Origin: Candidatus Peregrinibacteria bacterium
GTDB taxonomy: Bacteria > Patescibacteriota > Gracilibacteria > Peribacterales > Peribacteraceae
Direction: 5' to 3'
Assembly: GCA_030638845.1 (NCBI GenBank)
Contig: DAOWDW010000067.1
Span: forward strand, 1 to 10,431
Length of the DNA stretch: 10,431 nucleotides
Below, one piece after another: positions 2,921-9,600 of this stretch (within the stretch, counting starts at the first letter, position 1; each line of letters starts with the position of its first letter). The translations under genes and the position numbers were made by a program. The notes beneath the pieces were generated by a model. That model was not told the origin of the DNA. It made no database searches and saw only the letters and a list, made by a program, of their open reading frames with translations.

Positions 2921-3535
2921 TTAGAATCCTGCGTTAAGAATAACGTTTACTAATGCTTTTGCAATATTTATTGCAACTGCACCTGCAACTGCATAAATAA
3001 GCATAGTTTTAGCCTTGGTAAATTCTTCCGACTTTCCATGACCTACTATCATTCGTAACCCAGCTCCAACAGCAACAACTACAAAAATTGCATTAAAGAC
3101 AGATAGCATACCGTCTACTGCAACTCTCATTAATGCGAGAGCAGGGTTTGCAGAGGCAACAGCAAGTCCTCCTGAAATAGATCTACTAATTACGAATGAT
3201 ACTATTGCCTGAGAAGCAAGCGTAAGAGCAAATCCGCCTAGTGCAAAAATAATAGAATTTCTTCCTTTAGAAATCATACTATCATTTCCAAAACTAAGAA
3301 GCATTTGCACGCCCCCTGTAACAACAAAAAGTACTGCAGCTCCCGCAGCAACAGAAATAAAGACAGCAGCAGTATTTTGAATTCCAAGTGAAATAAGACC
3401 TTGAGCATTTGTACTACATCCACCAATCTTTTGACAAGGATCTACAAAAGCAAATGTAGTAGCAGGAACTAAAGCTAAAGCACCAGCTAAAATACTGAAT
3501 TTGGATACATTAGATGAAATAGGAAAAACTTTCAT
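2921..3535 (-). CDS. T4SS-pilin-like membrane protein, two fused pilin modules (second gene of operon)
   Basis: A 204-residue protein. A signal peptide (about 1-29, ending TTFA) precedes a segment with two cysteines (C34, C40: VDPCQKIGGCS). Module 1 (about 56-118) has two helices around the loop GGVQMLLSFGNDSMISKGRN. Module 2 (about 143-200) again has two helices around GLRMIVGHGKSEEFTKAK. Each module corresponds to one whole neighbouring pilin-like protein, so this looks like an internal duplication or fusion. The start chosen is the ATG at 3535, which overlaps the previous gene's TAA by one base (TAATG) and gives a normal signal peptide. The open frame upstream of it runs antiparallel to no feature and simply overlaps the first gene. 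Coupled translation with the upstream gene is likely. Function as a pilin or membrane scaffold is inferred from the family. Confidence 0.7.
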   Translation of the reverse strand: MKVFPISSNVSKFSILAGALALVPATTFAFVDPCQKIGGCSTNAQGLISLGIQNTAAVFISVAAGAAVLFVVTGGVQMLLSFGNDSMISKGRNSIIFALGGFALTLASQAIVSFVISRSISGGLAVASANPALALMRVAVDGMLSVFNAIFVVVAVGAGLRMIVGHGKSEEFTKAKTMLIYAVAGAVAINIAKALVNVILNAGF

Positions 3536-3915
3536 TATACGAAGAAAATGGAATTTAAAGTTCTTAAAATTACTCCTGTAAATAGTAAAACTAAAAGCCC
3601 AACAATAGACCAAGTTATACGAGAAATAGCTTCTTGCCTTCTACTTTGATTATTGCCAGAAGACATAAACATAACACCTCCAATAAGTACCCAAAGAACA
3701 GTAAAACCAATAGCTACTCGAAATAACCAAGAAGAAGACATATTAAAGTAATCTATAAATATATTTGGGCTAGAAGGTATAACCTTAGTCTTATCGTCAA
3801 GTGGCTGAGCAAGAGGAACTCCGGTACTTACTTGAGCAGATACTAAAGTAGGAATTGCAAGAACAAATAATATAGCCACAGCTATTTTTGCCTTTTGTAA
3901 AATTAATGAAATCAT
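3535..3915 (-). CDS. T4SS-pilin-like small membrane protein (first gene of operon)
   Basis: A 126-residue protein. A clear signal peptide (1-27, positively charged start, hydrophobic core AVAILFVLAIPTL, cleavage VSA-Q) is followed by a periplasmic or external linker rich in Pro. Two membrane helices lie at about 63-85 and 99-121, with the loop GGVMFMSSGNNQSRRQEAISR between them. The loop shares the pattern GG-x-x-M-x-x-S-G-N with the third gene. The start at 3915 is preferred over the longer frame (to 3990) because it begins a good signal peptide and sits 6 nt after an extended -10 box. The longer frame's extra 25 residues are unlike a signal sequence. It leads the operon and is divergent from the toxin-antitoxin pair. 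Confidence 0.72.
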   Translation of the reverse strand: MISLILQKAKIAVAILFVLAIPTLVSAQVSTGVPLAQPLDDKTKVIPSSPNIFIDYFNMSSSWLFRVAIGFTVLWVLIGGVMFMSSGNNQSRRQEAISRITWSIVGLLVLLFTGVILRTLNSIFFV

Positions 3916-3921
3916 TACATT

Positions 3922-3930
3922 ATTATAGCA
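3922..3930 (-). promoter_or_regulatory. Extended -10 promoter for the pilin-like operon (leaderless start)
   Basis: On the - strand TGCTATAAT is a perfect TGn-TATAAT extended -10 element. Six bases separate it from the ATG at 3915, so transcription would begin at or next to the A of the start codon. No good -35 box is seen, which is usual for extended -10 promoters. Confidence 0.7.
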
Positions 3931-3989
3931 GAAAATGGATGATGAGGCTAGATGGCAAACACAAAAAGATATATCAATATTCAAACACA

Positions 3990-4018
3990 TTGCATTGGTG
4001 TAACATTTTTGTTACACT
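3990..4018 (+). promoter_or_regulatory. Toxin-antitoxin promoter with palindromic operator
   Basis: A -35-like TTGCAT (3990-3995) and an extended -10 box TGT-TACACT (-10 hexamer at 4013-4018) have a 17-bp spacer. The inverted repeat GTGTAAC-n6-GTTACAC (3998-4017) covers the spacer and -10 box. A ribbon-helix-helix antitoxin normally represses its own promoter, so this palindrome is the likely operator. A second TACACT at 4024-4029 repeats half of it. Confidence 0.6.
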
Positions 4019-4042
4019 TTAGGTACACTTCCAAAAGAATCT

Positions 4043-4264
4043 ATGCCTACAAGTAAAAAACGTCTTAATATGAGTTTGCCTGAAGATATAAGATATGCCC
4101 TATCTGAGCTTGCAAAACGTGATGACGTTACTCCAACAACAAAAGCATTGCATCTCATTAAAATTGCATTGGAAATTGAGGAAGACGATGTGTGGAATGC
4201 CATTGCTACCGCACGAGATACAGAAAATGCAAAGTTTGTTCCTCATGAGAATGCTTGGGCATGA
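4043..4264 (+). CDS. Type II antitoxin, ribbon-helix-helix (RelB-like)
   Basis: A 73-residue protein. Residues 5-44 fit a ribbon-helix-helix DNA-binding fold: a basic strand KKRLNMSLPEDI, helix RYALSELAKRD, turn, and helix TPTTKALHLIKIALEI. The acidic, Trp-containing C-terminal tail (EEDDVWNAIATARD...) is the expected toxin-wrapping part. It should neutralise the RelE-like toxin encoded next and repress the shared promoter through the palindrome upstream. The stop TGA overlaps the toxin's ATG as ATGA, the usual arrangement for coupled expression. There is no clear Shine-Dalgarno site. The exact antitoxin subfamily is not recognised. Confidence 0.8.
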   Translation: MPTSKKRLNMSLPEDIRYALSELAKRDDVTPTTKALHLIKIALEIEEDDVWNAIATARDTENAKFVPHENAWA

Positions 4265-4536
4265 GTTATAAACTTAATTATCATCTGCTTGTTGTAAAAG
4301 AAGATATTCCTTCTTTGCCAAAAATAGGAAAAGGACGAATACAAAAAGCTATTCTAGAAAAACTAACTACACATCCAGAAGTATTTGGTAAACCTCTACG
4401 ACGCTCATTAAGATCATATAGAAAACTTCGAGTTGGTGATTACCGTGTTATTTTTAGAATTGAAGAAAATACAATTAAAATTTTTGCAATCGGACATCGA
4501 TCAACAATATATAAAGATTATGAAAAGAGATTATAA
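4261..4536 (+). CDS. RelE/ParE-family toxin
   Basis: A 91-residue basic protein. RelE-type toxins cleave mRNA on the ribosome, while ParE relatives poison gyrase. This sequence looks nearer RelE by its core: YRKLRVGDYRVIFRI (53-67), IKIFAIGHRSTIY (72-84) and a C-terminal YEKR helix. Candidate catalytic or RNA-contacting residues are R54, K55, R57, R62, R80 and Y84. The start is the ATG at 4261 inside the antitoxin's stop (ATGA). A TTG two codons earlier is less likely. It is followed by an AT-rich region and the 3' end of the convergent tRNA-Gly gene. Which of the two toxin activities applies cannot be settled from the sequence. Confidence 0.82.
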   Translation: MSYKLNYHLLVVKEDIPSLPKIGKGRIQKAILEKLTTHPEVFGKPLRRSLRSYRKLRVGDYRVIFRIEENTIKIFAIGHRSTIYKDYEKRL

Positions 4537-4600
4537 TTAATTATATAATAACGACAATTGCGACGTAGTTCCAAAATCGAACGCCTACCTACGTACTTCG

Positions 4601-4677
4601 TGGAGCGGATGACGGGACTCGGACCCGCGACCTTCGCCTTGGCAAGGCGACGCTCTAGCCAACTGAGCTACATCCGC
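4601..4677 (-). tRNA. tRNA-Gly (anticodon GCC)
   Basis: The - strand folds into a full cloverleaf. It has acceptor GCGGATG/CATCCGC, D stem GCTC/GAGC, and anticodon stem TCGCC/GGCGA with loop TTGCCAA (anticodon GCC). The T stem is GCGGG/CCCGT with loop TCCGAGT. The discriminator base is T, as expected for bacterial tRNA-Gly, and the CCA end is encoded (4601-4603). Confidence 0.97.
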
Positions 4678-4693
4678 AAAAAACTACTTACGC

Positions 4694-4722
4694 ATCCTAC
4701 GAATCTTAGCCCATTTGTGCAA
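4694..4722 (-). promoter_or_regulatory. Candidate promoter of tRNA-Gly
   Basis: On the - strand TTGCAC and TAGGAT are separated by 17 bp, and the -10 box lies 16 nt before the mature tRNA 5' end. Both boxes match the sigma-70 consensus only in part. Confidence 0.4.
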
Positions 4723-4738
4723 GTGAAGATAACAAGAT

Positions 4739-4933
4739 TTATTTCTTAAACCTTATATTTCTATAAGAAAACATCCTTTTAAATAAATTTATGATAATTT
4801 TAAATATTTTACTAAATACAATTCGAATAATCCCCTTTCCTCCAGACTCCAATCTATAATACAAAATTGGGATAACAAACAATGTAAAAATAGTCGCAAG
4901 GTAAGGGTAATAGGGCAGTTTTTTTATAATCAT
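4739..4933 (-). CDS. Hypothetical small single-pass membrane protein
   Basis: A 64-residue ORF, not recognised. It starts 9 bp after the tatD stop on the same strand. Residues 11-26 (YLATIFTLFVIPILYY) form one hydrophobic helix. The rest is basic and amphipathic (IIRIVFSKIFKIIINLFKRMF), ending FKK, which suggests a membrane-bound peptide with a cationic cytoplasmic tail. No Shine-Dalgarno is visible, so expression would depend on read-through from tatD. A chance ORF in AT-rich DNA is possible. Confidence 0.4.
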   Translation of the reverse strand: MIIKKLPYYPYLATIFTLFVIPILYYRLESGGKGIIRIVFSKIFKIIINLFKRMFSYRNIRFKK

Positions 4934-4942
4934 AAAACTAGC

Positions 4943-5701
4943 TTAAAGCCTAAAAAATTCCTCAGTATTCCTAGTCGTTTTTTCATCAATTTCATCAAAA
5001 CCCATTCCTTTTACCTGTGCAATACACTTAGCAATTTCAATTACGAAAGCAGGTTCGTTTCTCTTGCCCCGCATAGAATCTGGAGCTAAATACGGAGCAT
5101 CTGTTTCTATCATAAGCTGATCTAAGGGGCACATTTTAATAGTTCTCCGAATTTCATTTGATTTAGGATATGTAGCTATACCAGTAAAAGATAAGAAATA
5201 TCCCCTATCTACCAAATCTACAACATCTTCCCATTTTTCTGTACAACAATGAATTACTAGAAATGGTGGATTTATTTCATTTATTATTTCTTTTAAATCT
5301 TTAATTGATTCTCTGTTGTGCACAACAGAAGGCAACCCAAAATCCTTGGCAATCTTTAGTTGAGCACGAAATACTTCCCGTTGAACATCTCTTGGAGAAT
5401 TATCGTAGTAATAATCTAATCCAATTTCTCCTATAGCTACTACTTTTTTTGATGATTTAATCATTTCTTTTAGAATTGTTTCACTTTCAACATTCCAATC
5501 TTTTGAGCAGTGAGGATGTATTCCAATTGTACAAAATACTTGTTCATACTTTTGCGCTATTTCTAAACACTTTCTACTCTCTTCTATTTCATCTGCAATA
5601 GTAATAACTCTATCTACACCAGCATCTTTTGCACGTTTTAAAACTTCATCAATATCTCTATTAAATTTTCTGTCTGCTAGGTGGCAATGGGAATCGATCA
5701 T
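4943..5701 (-). CDS. tatD: TatD-family metal-dependent hydrolase / DNase
   Basis: A 252-residue TIM-barrel hydrolase of the amidohydrolase superfamily. TatD proteins are Mg2+-dependent 3'-5' exonucleases linked to DNA repair and degradation, or tRNA quality control in some relatives. Metal-site residues are all visible: H5 and H7 (DSHCHL), E92 (GEIGLDYYY), H128 (VVHNR), H151 (VIHCCT) and D201 (ETDAPYLAP). Length is normal for the family (about 250-265). The ATG at 5701 gives the canonical MIDSHCHL start and sits 6 nt after an extended -10 box, so the mRNA is probably leaderless. In many bacteria tatD is next to metG. Here metG is about 2.5 kb away on the same strand with the pilin operon, the toxin-antitoxin pair and the tRNA in between. 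Confidence 0.93.
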   Translation of the reverse strand: MIDSHCHLADRKFNRDIDEVLKRAKDAGVDRVITIADEIEESRKCLEIAQKYEQVFCTIGIHPHCSKDWNVESETILKEMIKSSKKVVAIGEIGLDYYYDNSPRDVQREVFRAQLKIAKDFGLPSVVHNRESIKDLKEIINEINPPFLVIHCCTEKWEDVVDLVDRGYFLSFTGIATYPKSNEIRRTIKMCPLDQLMIETDAPYLAPDSMRGKRNEPAFVIEIAKCIAQVKGMGFDEIDEKTTRNTEEFFRL

Positions 5702-5707
5702 AAATCA

Positions 5708-5716
5708 ATGATATCA
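5708..5716 (-). promoter_or_regulatory. Extended -10 promoter for tatD (leaderless start)
   Basis: On the - strand TGATATCAT matches TGn-TATAAT with one mismatch and is followed by six bases (TGATTT) and then the tatD ATG. The spacing is identical to that at the pilin-like operon and the RBBP9-like gene. Confidence 0.62.
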
Positions 5717-5812
5717 AAAAAGTTGCAAACACGCCTTGAGGAGAAGCTCAAAACAAAAAATGAACATACCCACAACTGGCAATAATTCTTTTAATTTGGT
5801 AGTTTACCACTT

Positions 5813-7219
5813 ATGACAAACCCAACCCTCCCTCTAGGACAACAAGAAATGCCCGAAGCACCTCGCCTTAAAAAACTCATCGGCCCCAGTTTTATTATAC
5901 TCGGTCTTGGCCTTGGTAGCGGCGAAGTAGTTCTTTGGCCATATATGTCTAGTACATATGGACTAGGAATTGTATGGGGCATGCTTATTGGTATAACTAT
6001 GCAGTTTTTTATAAATATGGAAGTAGAACGCTATGCGCTTGTTAATGGAGAAAGTATATTCGTAGGATTTGCACGACTTCTTAAATGGCTACCAGCGTGG
6101 TTTATTATTTCTACATTTTTAGGGTTTGGATGGCCTGGTATAGGACTATATGGAGCAACACTTCTTTCGGAGGCGTTTAATATAGGTTCTCCAAACACGG
6201 TTGCAATAATTCTATTCGTAGCAATTGGATTAATACTTACACTCGGAAAAGTATTGTATAAAACAGTAGAAAGACTTCAGATGTTTATTATATCCATAGG
6301 AGTACCTCTAATAGTATTACTGACTGCATATCTCGCTAGTAAAGCAGATTTAATGGAGTTATTTAGAGGGCTAATTGGACGTGGTGTTCACGAGGGTGAA
6401 GCATTTTCTTTCTTACCAAATGGAATAGTTATTGGAACATTCCTAGGAGCACTTGCATACGCAGGTGCAGGAGGAAATTTAAACCTTACACAGTCTTGTT
6501 ATGTGAGAGATAAAGGCTATGGAATGGGAAAATACGCCACACGCATAACAAGCCTATTTTCTAAAAAAGGAAAAAAACAAGCCGTAACTCTTACTGGAAA
6601 TACTTTCCCTCAAACTGAAGAAAATATAAATAGATTTCACAAATGGTGGAAAACAGTAAACCTAGAACATTTTTTAATTTTCTGGGGACTAGGGCTATTT
6701 ACCATGCTTACCCTTTCTCTTTTAGCTTACATAACAACATATGAAAGTGATGCAGGAGGAGGCATAGCATTTGTTATTACAGAAGGCATGGCAATTGGCC
6801 AACTAACTCTACCAATCATTGGAGTGCTGTTCTTAGTAGTTACAGGAATTATGTTAGCTGCTACTCAACTAACAGTACTAGATTCCACTAGTAGAATAAT
6901 TACAGAAAACGTATTACTTATGAGTAAAAAGGAAACGCATAATGTTTCTAAAACTTACTACATAGTTCTTTGGATTCAAATTCTTTTCGGGATAACAGTA
7001 TTCAGTATAGGATTCGATCAACCTTTAACATTGATAATTATGGGCGCCATAATTAACGCCTTTAGTATGTTTGTTTACAGTGGAATTATTCTAATACTTA
7101 ACAACAAACTACTGGCAAAAGCTGTTCGTCCTAGAATGTGGAGAAACGTTGTAATGGCTGCCACTTTCCTTTTCTTGGGATATTTCTGTGCTATTACCTT
7201 ACTAGAAAAAATTGGATAA
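5813..7219 (+). CDS. Nramp-like membrane transporter with non-canonical metal-site motif
   Basis: A 468-residue polytopic protein with about 11 hydrophobic helices, matching the Nramp branch of the LeuT-fold transporters. A GPSFIILGLGLGSGEVVLWP segment (24-43) occupies TM1. ERYALVNGES (72-81) ends TM2, and AYAGAGGNLNLTQSCYVRDKGYGMG (215-239) covers the TM6 region. In classical Mn/Fe Nramps TM1 holds DPGN and TM6 holds an MPH-like motif. Here GSGE stands at the TM1 site and no MPH is seen, so the substrate may differ from Mn2+ or Fe2+. A polar insert (about 241-285) follows TM6. No Shine-Dalgarno is present. Just upstream is TGG-TAGTTT, a poor extended -10 seven bases before the ATG, which also forms a small TGGTA-GTT-TACCA hairpin. 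It is divergent from tatD. Confidence 0.75.
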   Translation: MTNPTLPLGQQEMPEAPRLKKLIGPSFIILGLGLGSGEVVLWPYMSSTYGLGIVWGMLIGITMQFFINMEVERYALVNGESIFVGFARLLKWLPAWFIISTFLGFGWPGIGLYGATLLSEAFNIGSPNTVAIILFVAIGLILTLGKVLYKTVERLQMFIISIGVPLIVLLTAYLASKADLMELFRGLIGRGVHEGEAFSFLPNGIVIGTFLGALAYAGAGGNLNLTQSCYVRDKGYGMGKYATRITSLFSKKGKKQAVTLTGNTFPQTEENINRFHKWWKTVNLEHFLIFWGLGLFTMLTLSLLAYITTYESDAGGGIAFVITEGMAIGQLTLPIIGVLFLVVTGIMLAATQLTVLDSTSRIITENVLLMSKKETHNVSKTYYIVLWIQILFGITVFSIGFDQPLTLIIMGAIINAFSMFVYSGIILILNNKLLAKAVRPRMWRNVVMAATFLFLGYFCAITLLEKIG

Positions 7220-7354
7220 ACTTTGTATTACAATGTAACACACGAGTAATATCAAATCGCATAGTTGAATTGCAGATGAGCAAGAAACATATCAACGCAG
7301 TGAATCCAACGGGGCAAATTACGCAGATGCCACTGATTAATTTATAACATTCTT

Positions 7355-7368
7355 CGTAGCTTGCGAAG
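7355..7368. repeat. Short dispersed palindromic motif, copy 2
   Basis: CGTAGCTTGCGAAG matches 416-429 (CGTAGCTTGTGAAG) at 13 of 14 bases. Here it forms the right side of a TTCTTCG/CGAAGAA stem (7350-7370) just after the 3' end of tRNA-Lys. The 416 copy lies in a hairpin between the convergent fmt and PUR genes. No T tract follows either, so neither is a standard intrinsic terminator. Confidence 0.4.
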
Positions 7369-7373
7369 AAAAA

Positions 7374-7448
7374 TGGTGGGTCAGGTGGGGATCGAACCCA
7401 CGGCCAATAGGTTAAAAGCCTACTGCTCTACCACTGAGCTACTGACCC
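7374..7448 (-). tRNA. tRNA-Lys (anticodon TTT)
   Basis: The - strand folds into a cloverleaf. It has acceptor GGGTCAG/CTGACCC, D stem GCTC/GAGC, and anticodon stem GTAGG/CCTAT with loop CTTTTAA (anticodon TTT, read UUU). The T stem is GTGGG/CCCAC with loop TTCGATC. The discriminator is A and the CCA is encoded (7374-7376). A TATATT at 7457-7462 on the same strand lies only 8 bases before the mature 5' end and is the likely -10 box. Transcription would then start almost exactly at the tRNA's first base. Confidence 0.97.
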
Positions 7449-7520
7449 ATGTGAATAATATATTTACTATGATATGAAAGAATTGATGCCTGCGAAGTGA
7501 ATCACTGCCTGTCGACCGTA

Positions 7521-7537
7521 GTCCGCCTTTGGCGGAC
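7521..7537. repeat. GC-rich perfect hairpin
   Basis: GTCCGCC-TTT-GGCGGAC is a 7-bp perfect stem with a 3-nt loop in otherwise AT-rich DNA. No T tract follows on either strand, so it looks more like a dispersed palindromic element or structured RNA piece than a terminator. Confidence 0.55.
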
Positions 7538-7546
7538 GAAGGCTGA

Positions 7547-7559
7547 AGCTACTGACCCA
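7547..7559 (-). repeat. Duplicated 5' end of tRNA-Lys
   Basis: AGCTACTGACCCA is identical to 7437-7449, the complement of the acceptor 5' strand and the start of the D arm of tRNA-Lys, exactly 110 bp apart. Similarity extends a few more bases to CTGA with one extra A. No other tRNA parts follow, so this is a fragment and not a second tRNA gene. Confidence 0.7.
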
Positions 7560-7661
7560 AACTTAAGTAAACATACGTATTGTACGAAAGTTTTAAAATA
7601 AAGAAACAAAAAATCTAATTAACTGCAACATATGTTTTCAGGCTTATAAAGAAAAACCATA

Positions 7662-7693
7662 GGGTAGCCTCACGGCATGCCGTGAAGCTACCC
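7662..7693. repeat. 32-nt near-perfect palindrome
   Basis: The left arm begins GGGTAGCC and the right arm ends GAAGCTACCC. The 16-base arms are complementary except for one C/A mismatch, around the centre GGCATGCC. On the - strand the hairpin is followed by a T-rich stretch (TATGGTTTTTCTTT) like a terminator, but no - strand gene lies upstream to need one. A dispersed palindromic repeat or a cruciform or protein-binding site is equally possible. Confidence 0.7.
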
Positions 7694-7757
7694 GAAGATT
7701 TATGTAAATAAACGTTATTACATGAGAACCGTAAAACTTCTATTAAACAACACATAT

Positions 7758-7766
7758 TGCTATCAT
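7758..7766 (+). promoter_or_regulatory. Extended -10 promoter for RBBP9-like hydrolase (leaderless start)
   Basis: TGCTATCAT is followed by six bases (TCATTT) and the ATG at 7773. It is the same box and spacing as at tatD and the pilin-like operon, and it also supports 7773 as the true start. Confidence 0.62.
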
Positions 7767-7772
7767 TCATTT

Positions 7773-8330
7773 ATGAGCAATATATTCATATTCCATGGAG
7801 CTGATGGAAATGCAAAAGAAAACTGGTTTCCTTGGTTAAAAGAAAAACTAGAAGAAGAAGGACACGCAGTAATTGTTCCTTCATTTCCAAATTCAGATGA
7901 ACCAAAATTAAATGAATGGCTTGAGCATTTAAAAAAATATAAAGAGCAAATAAATGAAGATTCTATCCTAATAGGACACAGTCTTGGTGCAGCATTTGCT
8001 CTTCGACTTCTTGAACAAAGAAGTATTGATATAAAGGCATGCTTTTTAGTTTCGGCTGTTTGGGATGTTATGAATAATGAATATGATGAAAAAACGACAT
8101 CATTTATAGAAGGTAGATTTAATTGGGAACTTCTTAAGAAAAAAGCAAAACATTTTGAAGTAATTCATTCAAATAACGATCCGTACATAGCTCTAGAAAA
8201 AGCAGAAGTACTTGCAGACAAGCTAAATGTACCAGTTTCACTTGTACAAGATGCTGGACATTTCAATAATTCATCTGGATATACAAAATTTGATTTGTTG
8301 CTTGAAAAAGTTAAAGAGGAACTAAAGTAA
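7773..8330 (+). CDS. RBBP9/YdeN-family alpha/beta serine hydrolase
   Basis: A 185-residue alpha/beta hydrolase. The oxyanion-type start FIFHGADG is at 5-12. The nucleophile elbow GHSLG (68-72) has S70 as nucleophile, D136 (SNNDPYI) is the acid and H163 (AGHFN) the base. This is a complete Ser-Asp-His triad in the order and spacing of the RBBP9/YdeN (DUF, serine hydrolase) family. Length is normal (about 180-200). There is no signal peptide, so it is cytoplasmic. The natural substrate of the family in bacteria is not known. The ATG at 7773 is preferred to the ATG at 7722, because the extra 17 residues do not resemble the fold and the -10 box lies in between. No operon partner is evident. Confidence 0.87.
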   Translation: MSNIFIFHGADGNAKENWFPWLKEKLEEEGHAVIVPSFPNSDEPKLNEWLEHLKKYKEQINEDSILIGHSLGAAFALRLLEQRSIDIKACFLVSAVWDVMNNEYDEKTTSFIEGRFNWELLKKKAKHFEVIHSNNDPYIALEKAEVLADKLNVPVSLVQDAGHFNNSSGYTKFDLLLEKVKEELK

Positions 8331-8422: not shown

Positions 8423-8469
8423 ACGAAGACGTATGACATCCCTTTTCCTTTCCGCTACTCTTTCTTTTG

Positions 8470-9600
8470 ATGAAAGTAGCTATTGTCCATGAACTATTAA
8501 CAAGGCGTGGTGGTGCAGAACATGTTGCAAAGATATTTGCAGATATGTTTCCAGAAGCACCAATTTACACTCTTCTTTATAACGAAGAAAAACTAGGAGA
8601 CTGGTTTCCAAAAGAAAGAATTAAAACACCAAACTATCCATTTACTCATAGCTCAAGGCTCATAGCTCAAAGCTTTAATCATCATCTTTATCTATCCCAA
8701 TTCCCTACGGCTATTGAATCATTCAACTTTGATGATTTTGATTTAGTAATCAGCTCTTCTTCTGCTTTTGCTCACGGAATAATAACTAACGGAAAACCTA
8801 AACATCTTTGTTACGTTCACTCCCCTGCTAGATATTTGTGGGATAGCACACATGATGTACTTAATCGTGCAAGCAAAGGAATACTAGGACCACTTAAAAG
8901 ATTGTACCTACACAAAACTTTTCACAAATTAAGAATTTGGGACGCAGAGGTAGCCCCAAGACCAGACGTTTTAATTGCAAACTCAAAAGAAGTACAAAGG
9001 AGAATAGAACTTTACTGGAGAAGAGACAGTAAAGTTATTACGCCACCAATAGATGATATTTGGTTCTCTAATAACTTGAAACCTGTAACCTGTAACCTTC
9101 AACCCCACTTCTTAATAGTATCTACACTAACTCAATACAAAAATATAGATATCGCCATTCTCGCATGTAATGAGCTAAAACTTCCTCTCACGATTGTTGG
9201 TGAGGGACCAGACGAAAAGAGACTTAAAAAACTAGCAGGACCAACAATTAAATTTATGGGATACAAATCCAATGAAGAAGTAAGAGATATATACACAAAT
9301 GCAAAGGCAGTCCTATTTACTAGTAACGACGACTTCGGATTGGTTCCGTTAGAAGCAAACGCATGTGGAACTCCAGTAATTGCATTAAAAGTAGGAGGCG
9401 CAAAAGAAACAGTAATTGATGGGGAAACAGGAATATTTTTCGAAGCTCCAACGAAGGAAAGTTTGATGAATACTTTAAAGAATTTTGATGATAAAAAATT
9501 TAACTGCGAAGTTTGTAAAAATCATGCAGAAAAATTTAGAAGAAGTAAGTTTGAAGAAGAAATAAAAAACCAAATCAATAAGATAACCGCGAGCAGCTAG
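8470..9600 (+). CDS. GT4-family glycosyltransferase (GT-B fold)
   Basis: A 376-residue retaining glycosyltransferase, probably using a nucleotide-sugar donor for surface polysaccharide or glycolipid synthesis. Acceptor and donor are not predictable. The N-terminal Rossmann half has MKVAIVHELL, then RRGGAEHVAKIFADMFP (12-28), ISSSSAFAHG (94-103) and CYVHSPARYLWD (114-125), as in WbaZ-type mannosyltransferases. The C-terminal half has IVGEGPDEKRL (242-252), the EX7E-type segment DDFGLVPLEANACGTPVIA (287-305) and VGGAKETV (308-315). The first Glu of EX7E is Asp here (D287), a conservative change. ATG 8470 is used instead of the TTG at 8467. Two tandem heptamer repeats lie in the coding sequence, at residues about 59-68 and 202-213. 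Cytoplasmic or membrane-associated. Confidence 0.9.
   Translation: MKVAIVHELLTRRGGAEHVAKIFADMFPEAPIYTLLYNEEKLGDWFPKERIKTPNYPFTHSSRLIAQSFNHHLYLSQFPTAIESFNFDDFDLVISSSSAFAHGIITNGKPKHLCYVHSPARYLWDSTHDVLNRASKGILGPLKRLYLHKTFHKLRIWDAEVAPRPDVLIANSKEVQRRIELYWRRDSKVITPPIDDIWFSNNLKPVTCNLQPHFLIVSTLTQYKNIDIAILACNELKLPLTIVGEGPDEKRLKKLAGPTIKFMGYKSNEEVRDIYTNAKAVLFTSNDDFGLVPLEANACGTPVIALKVGGAKETVIDGETGIFFEAPTKESLMNTLKNFDDKKFNCEVCKNHAEKFRRSKFEEEIKNQINKITASS
8645..8672 (+). repeat. Heptamer-based tandem repeat inside the glycosyltransferase gene
   Basis: A 14-bp unit CTCATAGCTCAAGG is repeated once with one change. Each unit is two related heptamers (CTCATAG, CTCAARG). It encodes about residues 59-68 (THSSRLIAQS). 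The CTCAAAG heptamer is shared with the intergenic repeat at 2525-2541. Confidence 0.6.
9073..9107 (+). repeat. Five degenerate AACCTGT heptamers inside the glycosyltransferase gene
   Basis: Successive heptamers AACTTGA, AACCTGT, AACCTGT, AACCTTC and AACCCCA fill 35 bp, read in all three frames in turn because seven is not a multiple of three. They encode about residues 202-213 (NLKPVTCNLQPH), the linker between the two Rossmann halves just before the strand HFLIVSTL. Confidence 0.7.

Follow-up and report, generated by a model that had tools for sequence, protein, structure and literature searches.

Extended -10 boxes set close to start codons predict leaderless mRNAs in Peribacteria that hardly use Shine-Dalgarno pairing

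Leaderless genes of bacteria can be recognized from their promoters, a -10 box approximately 12 bp before the start codon being an established sign of a leaderless message (Zheng et al. 2011, PMC3160421). Such TA-led genes account for approximately 20% of genes in Actinobacteria and for up to 46.1% in Deinococcus radiodurans (PMC3160421). Candidatus Peribacter riflensis, of the same lineage as the DNA described here, is tabulated as Shine-Dalgarno (SD)-scarce, without CCUCC and with 7% SD genes, and the absence of CCUCC was thus already known for that one species (PMC10783764). We analyzed a contig of 10.4 kb (G000:C55; "the window", meaning the whole stretch) in a bin of 808 kb that is 76% complete. 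Three genes of the window carry an extended -10 box followed by exactly 6 nucleotides (nt) and ATG, just as a sequence-only reading had claimed, and as far as sequence and position can tell these boxes belong to a lineage-wide pattern. We consider it likely that transcription starts at or beside the AUG and that about a quarter to a third of the promoter-proximal genes have leaderless mRNAs, in a lineage that hardly uses SD pairing. The three boxes and their genes are as follows.

3922..3930, minus strand: extended -10 box TGCTATAAT; the ATG of the first pilin-like gene follows after 6 nt
3535..3915, minus strand: first T4SS-pilin-like gene (Pfam PF18895), ATG at 3913-3915, predicted leaderless
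5708..5716, minus strand: extended -10 box TGATATCAT, 6 nt before the tatD ATG
4943..5701, minus strand: tatD, encoding a TatD-type DNase (Pfam PF01026, matched from residue 2), predicted leaderless
7758..7766, plus strand: extended -10 box TGCTATCAT; the ATG of the serine-hydrolase gene follows after 6 nt
7773..8330, plus strand: serine-hydrolase gene (Pfam PF06821, Ser_hydrolase), called RBBP9-like in the earlier reading, predicted leaderless

The window belongs to a Peribacteria-type genome of the candidate phyla radiation (CPR). The TatD protein of the window is nearest to Candidatus Peregrinibacteria/Peribacteria records, at no more than 67% identity; its 21 best matches (L021-L041) lie at 55-67% and the next at 44%. 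Peribacteria are classified within Peregrinibacteriota by NCBI. The family set comprises these 21 loci, assigned by TatD identity alone, and 13 stretches from genomes of the same family; G000 is referred to as the own genome and G001 as the congener. The controls for the gene-based tests were 59 loci from several phyla outside the CPR, many of them Bacillota. Gene starts were picked by a coding model without upstream-sequence input, with a slight preference for ATG and without proteomic support. A gene was counted as first-type when it had a divergent neighbor, an upstream gap of at least 60 nt or no upstream neighbor. The number of nt between box and start codon is the gap, gaps of 6-8 are in register, and counts at other positions served as the background for an in-register TAnnnT or -10-like box.

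That the box should recur at a fixed distance throughout the genome was a proposed check on the leaderless interpretation, and such a peak was found: gaps from TGnTATAAT to ATG in the own genome peak at 6. Among 42 pairs of TGnTATAAT and ATG within 30 nt, nine had gap 6, two gap 7 and five gap 8 (16 of 42 together), with at most four at any other gap. The excess at gap 6 has p of approximately 6e-6 under a uniform model and approximately 2e-4 after correction for 31 gaps. Of the nine gap-6 sites in the own genome, one is located at a tRNA-Tyr gene and the other eight head open reading frames (ORFs) that are 62-346 aa long and have a positive coding score; 10 of the 11 congener sites head ORFs of at least 112 aa and the remaining frame has 19 codons. 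Together, 18 of the 20 strict gap-6 sites open an ORF of at least 62 aa with a positive coding score. A Pfam scan of 10 of the 18 proteins identified a T2SSE ATPase (in both genomes), TIM, G6PD and a 6-phosphogluconolactonase-type protein, the other five having no match. Strict gap-6 sites with a G before the ATG were also considered as possible marks of tRNA genes, but only 1 of the 20 sites lay at one. Contig 8 of the congener (L187 and L188) carries two similar promoter and N-terminal sequences approximately 1.6 kb apart, of which one heads a long ORF and the other stops after 19 codons; the pair is possibly a partial duplication.

In 16 of the 22 tatD genes of the window and its 21 closest relatives, a TAnnnT ends 6-8 nt before the start codon, a number equaled in none of 5000 shuffles. 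Among first-type genes, a -10-like box at gap 6-8 occurred in 33% of 96 in the own genome, 34% of 102 in the congener and 26% of 314 in the family set, compared with 11%, 8% and 5% for the same box at other positions. The peak was absent from the non-CPR controls (479 genes; 4.0% at gap 6-8 vs 9.8% elsewhere). When only first-type genes with homologue-aligned starts were considered, the box was in register in 65 of 140; without the tatD family the count was 50 of 121, whereas other positions gave 9.2 on average and at most 14, and a stricter box in the same 121 genes gave 41 against 6.7 expected. The lower edge is sharp: in the 314 genes of the family set, tatD included, the number of sites rises from 4 at gap 5 to 43 at gap 6. 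Internal in-frame ATGs had no peak at gaps 6 to 8 (66 of 1533), and closely spaced internal genes had the box at gap 6-8 in 12.5% of 24 (own genome), 5.6% of 36 (congener) and 9.1% of 66 (family). The mark of known TA-led leaderless genes, TAnnnT at a fixed place approximately 12 bp before the start, was thus present in the own genome, the congener and the family. ATG is the start in 136 of 148 candidates, a weak criterion because ATG is also common in all family genes and favored by the start scoring. A de novo motif search recovered the box in the combined own and congener set, and SD in the controls.

When the 148 candidates were aligned on the box, T and G were enriched at the TGn positions and a modest TTG-like -35 element appeared, the match to TTGACA being best at a spacing of 16-17 nt; neither feature had been selected for, and as sequence context both fit a working promoter element. 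The tRNA genes provide a ruler for this promoter. In 86 tRNA genes, which include many homologous Lys, Gly and Arg genes and so are not mutually independent, most boxes are found 8-12 nt from the mature end, few are nearer, and the edge is at approximately 8. This is as expected if transcription begins approximately 6-8 nt past the box, and the mRNA mode at 6 with its sharp drop at 5 is as expected if the start codon is the first base of the transcript and must stay uncut. Only 6 and 8 nt separate a -10-like box from the mature 5' end in two tRNA genes, for Lys (window 7374-7448, minus strand) and Tyr (L179 1320-1404, minus strand), which suggests that their pre-tRNAs may be nearly leader-free.

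SD motifs were scored as GGAG, GAGG or AGGA within the SD window and compared with background. They occurred before 1.6% of 125 sampled genes in the own genome (background 6.9%), 3.2% of 158 in the congener (7.2%) and 5.6% of 413 in the family set (7.7%). The corresponding values were 23.5% of 332 in other CPR (6.6%), 41% of 183 in G160, a genome of another CPR family (5.6%), and 51.6% of 850 in the non-CPR controls (10.1%). Compensated motifs that would pair with the altered 16S tails, GGAAG and GGAGA, were not enriched overall across all genes: their frequencies were 0 and 0 in the own genome, 0 and 0.006 vs 0.004 and 0.015 in the congener, and 0.002 and 0.010 vs 0.012 and 0.010 in the family. 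The AGGA upstream of the third pilin gene, put forward earlier as a good SD site, is indeed present 7 nt before the ATG at 2919; it overlaps the 3' end of the preceding gene. Because SD motifs are not enriched, the in-register box is the sole positive start signal found.

Inspection of the 16S rRNA 3' end, likewise proposed as a check, revealed an altered anti-SD in the congener and in nearly all family genomes with a matched tail. The congener tail is GGAACACUUCC, with an altered CCUCC core. Tails matching the pattern were found in 52 of the 74 family genomes and in 81 of the 239 phylum genomes, the remainder having no 16S gene in the data or a different tail. The core is altered in 51 of the 52 (CUUCC in 25, UCUCC in 20, UUUCC in 6), and a second 16S copy with UUUCC is present in G015; the tail of G009, outside the matched pattern, is more strongly altered. 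In the phylum sample, the core was altered in all seven genomes of the own family, and outside it CCUCC was kept in 70 of 74 (the exceptions are G324, G038, G065 and G304). As judged from start regions and rRNA tails, SD disuse with an altered anti-SD marks the family of the window. The single family genome among the 52 with canonical CCUCC, G002 (L195-L214), has the -10 peak despite its CCUCC (24 of 94 vs 2.8); with its leaderless register and little SD use, it hints that the loss of SD use came before the change of the anti-SD.

Further features of the family tails were seen. The preceding GAUCA, reported as the Era binding site of the 16S 3' end (PMC10582724), is now GAACA or GAAUA. In the tails of L103-L108, the bases right after the anti-SD seem to co-vary with it (CUUCC/GGGAA, UCUCC/GGGAG and UUUC/GGAAA), as if the pre-16S rRNA formed a small hairpin at the altered anti-SD.

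The register appears to extend beyond the family. With gap-12 counts chosen as the control, 116 CPR genomes contained 729 gap-6 sites vs 107 gap-12 sites (629 vs 103 without G160), gap 6 being higher in 92, lower in 7 and equal in 17, and 16 comparison genomes contained 104 and 100, respectively. A control with the reversed pattern was dropped as too weak because forward gap-6 sites exceed reversed ones in the comparison genomes too (104 vs 30). G160 (L115-L125; 0.7 Mb) has 100 strict TGnTATAAT-6 nt-ATG sites among 216 matches within 20 nt, the strongest leaderless signal of the 116 genomes searched, alongside real SD motifs; the de novo search recovered the box there as well. Among 179 first-type genes in 20 single stretches of other CPR families, 17% had the box at gap 6-8 vs 8%, and eight stretches had none. 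The peaks outside the family are weaker and uneven and the gap-6 excess is broad; therefore, the leaderless register appears to be CPR-wide but uneven.

Two more in-register boxes were found in the window.

5797..5805, plus strand: weaker extended -10-like box TGGTAGTTT, gap 7 before the ATG at 5813
8456..8461, plus strand: -10-like TACTCT, gap 8 before the ATG at 8470 of a group 1 glycosyltransferase gene

The 468-aa protein starting at 5813 has no Pfam match, and its single start-aligned homologue also has TAnnnT in register; for the glycosyltransferase, this was so in 8 of 11 start-aligned homologues.

The leaderless-mRNA interpretation is supported at the sequence level by the promoter register, the change at the 16S 3' end of relatives and the lack of SD enrichment. 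The bolder statement that leaderless translation is a main initiation mode stands in part: once background is subtracted, approximately a quarter to a third of the promoter-proximal genes would use it, and the data do not show that most of them do. In the reading that we favor, the boxes would be ordinary sigma-70-type promoters with a TGn-extended -10 and a weak -35, placed so that RNA polymerase would start at, or no more than approximately 2 bases away from, the A of the AUG. The resulting mRNAs would be leaderless, and ribosomes would enter through recognition of AUG by fMet-tRNA instead of SD pairing, in a family whose SD system appears near disuse, with unenriched motifs and an altered anti-SD core. 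For operon-internal genes, which also lack SD, translation would probably begin through coupling or on leaders that are unstructured and poor in G. We infer the transcript 5' ends at the start codon, the AUG-led entry and the coupling of operon genes from these patterns. More tentatively, and with somewhat less than even confidence, leaderless initiation may be a major and old CPR mode that displaced SD pairing in Peribacteria so far that the anti-SD decayed, first genes now being leaderless and the rest started by coupling.

Several observations weigh against this reading. More than half of the family first-type genes have no box at gaps 6-8, and neither do three of the eight in the window. 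The gene at 445-759 and metG (894-2423) have no in-register TAnnnT, nor do any of their five and two homologues, respectively; an antitoxin-like gene (4043-4264) has none either, and the search gave no start-aligned homologue for it. Gaps 7 and 8 permit a leader of 1-2 nt. Three more gap-6 sites (in G026 and G021) head long frames, yet the coding model of the own genome gives these a negative score. Families of the same class show only a weak peak (17% of 81 vs 8%), and in the mixed-GC family and same-class sets the de novo search gave pyrimidine- or T-rich motifs, not the box. The own bin, 76% complete, contains no 16S gene, and its tail is therefore inferred from relatives. Most of the 16S changes are of one base, and UCUCCUU could still pair with AAGGAG; for this reason, SD disuse rests mainly on the missing motifs. 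G002, which keeps CCUCC, has a slight SD excess (21 of 130 vs 13.7 expected). Finally, an S1-like protein has strong matches in 36 of 39 family genomes (E of 1e-58 or better, none above the rpsA cut-off) and weak ones in G000, G024 and G026; S1-assisted leadered starts are therefore possible for genes without the box.

The rival explanation that survives best is that the messages carry very short leaders of 1-5 nt and use a short-leader mechanism, without being strictly leaderless. We hold it to be unlikely, yet it deserves attention: in the 121 homologue-supported genes gaps 7 and 8 are enriched too (18 and 9, vs 24 at gap 6), and the start point may wobble by 1-2 bases. However, the mode lies at gap 6 with a sharp lower edge, and a short-leader design predicts a later mode. 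The two modes are functionally close.

A further rival, which we hold to be improbable, takes the TA-rich element for an upstream bias that acts like a translation enhancer, comparable to that of Bacteroidota or S1-type leaders, and puts the true promoters further upstream. Upstream regions are U/C-rich and G-poor in operon-internal genes too, and the S1-like protein described above would fit such leaders. However, the element has TGn and a -35-like partner at 16-17 nt, its frequency is higher before first-type genes than before internal genes with close spacing, and it also precedes tRNA genes, 8-12 nt from the mature end; none of this would be needed by an RNA signal. Bacteroidota are described as lacking SD yet keeping the anti-SD (PMC6847099). 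SD-less leadered initiation of their type, with an anti-SD kept but sequestered, does not describe the present family, in which the core is altered, and the promoter register argues against leaders for approximately a quarter to a third of first-type genes.

Mis-called starts, with the true start codons downstream behind ordinary leaders, are a very improbable source of the pattern. The starts do come from a simple coding model without proteomic support, but the family matches of TatD and TIM begin at residues 2 and 4, respectively, and the peak is clear in genes with homologue-aligned starts. Chance or post hoc selection in an AT-rich genome has a negligible probability: three sites arose in 10 of 200 window shuffles when one mismatch was allowed, but exact matches averaged 0.04 (largest 1, none of 200 reaching 3), and the own-genome peak, the tatD genes of 21 relatives and the CPR counts (729 vs 107, against 104 vs 100 in comparison genomes) contradict it. 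Because the box pattern was picked post hoc, the evidential weight falls on the independent genome-wide and family-wide tests.

Promoters and ribosomes of Nanoarchaeota are archaeal, whereas the promoters here are of the bacterial sigma-70 type. The likeness to that group lies in leaderless messages combined with loss of the CCUCC core, which PMC10783764 explains by relaxed selection. An altered anti-SD and the lack of SD motifs are shared with Flavobacteriia and with tiny-genome symbionts lacking the anti-SD, which are not described as leaderless in the passages concerned (PMC6107228, PMC10783764). The TA-led genes of Actinobacteria and Deinococcus-Thermus are similar in having TANNNT approximately 12 bp before the start codon (PMC3160421); in contrast, SD motifs here do not rise above background, and the family has an altered anti-SD core. 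The main text of PMC3160421 does not contain the word "candidate" and seemingly does not cover CPR genomes. Section 21 of PMC10783764 treats neither promoters nor leaderless mRNAs for the lineage, and our data go beyond it in placing the change in 51 of 52 matched family genomes and tying it to the promoter register. YchF, retained in CPR, has been mentioned as an aid to leaderless translation (PMC12641178). We found no report of leaderless initiation in CPR among the titles, abstract openings and passages of the open-access literature.

CPR bacteria are a large and barely cultured part of bacterial diversity. Should many of their genes prove leaderless, SD-reliant gene callers will misplace starts, and heterologous expression of such genes needs rethinking. 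Peribacteria offer a natural test of how a bacterial ribosome copes after a change of its anti-SD and, through G002, which keeps CCUCC and already has the promoter register and little SD, of whether leaderless promoters preceded that change.

The window also contains a small two-gene unit at 4043-4536, in which the first gene, without a Pfam match, is likely an antitoxin and the second encodes a ParE-type toxin (PF05016).

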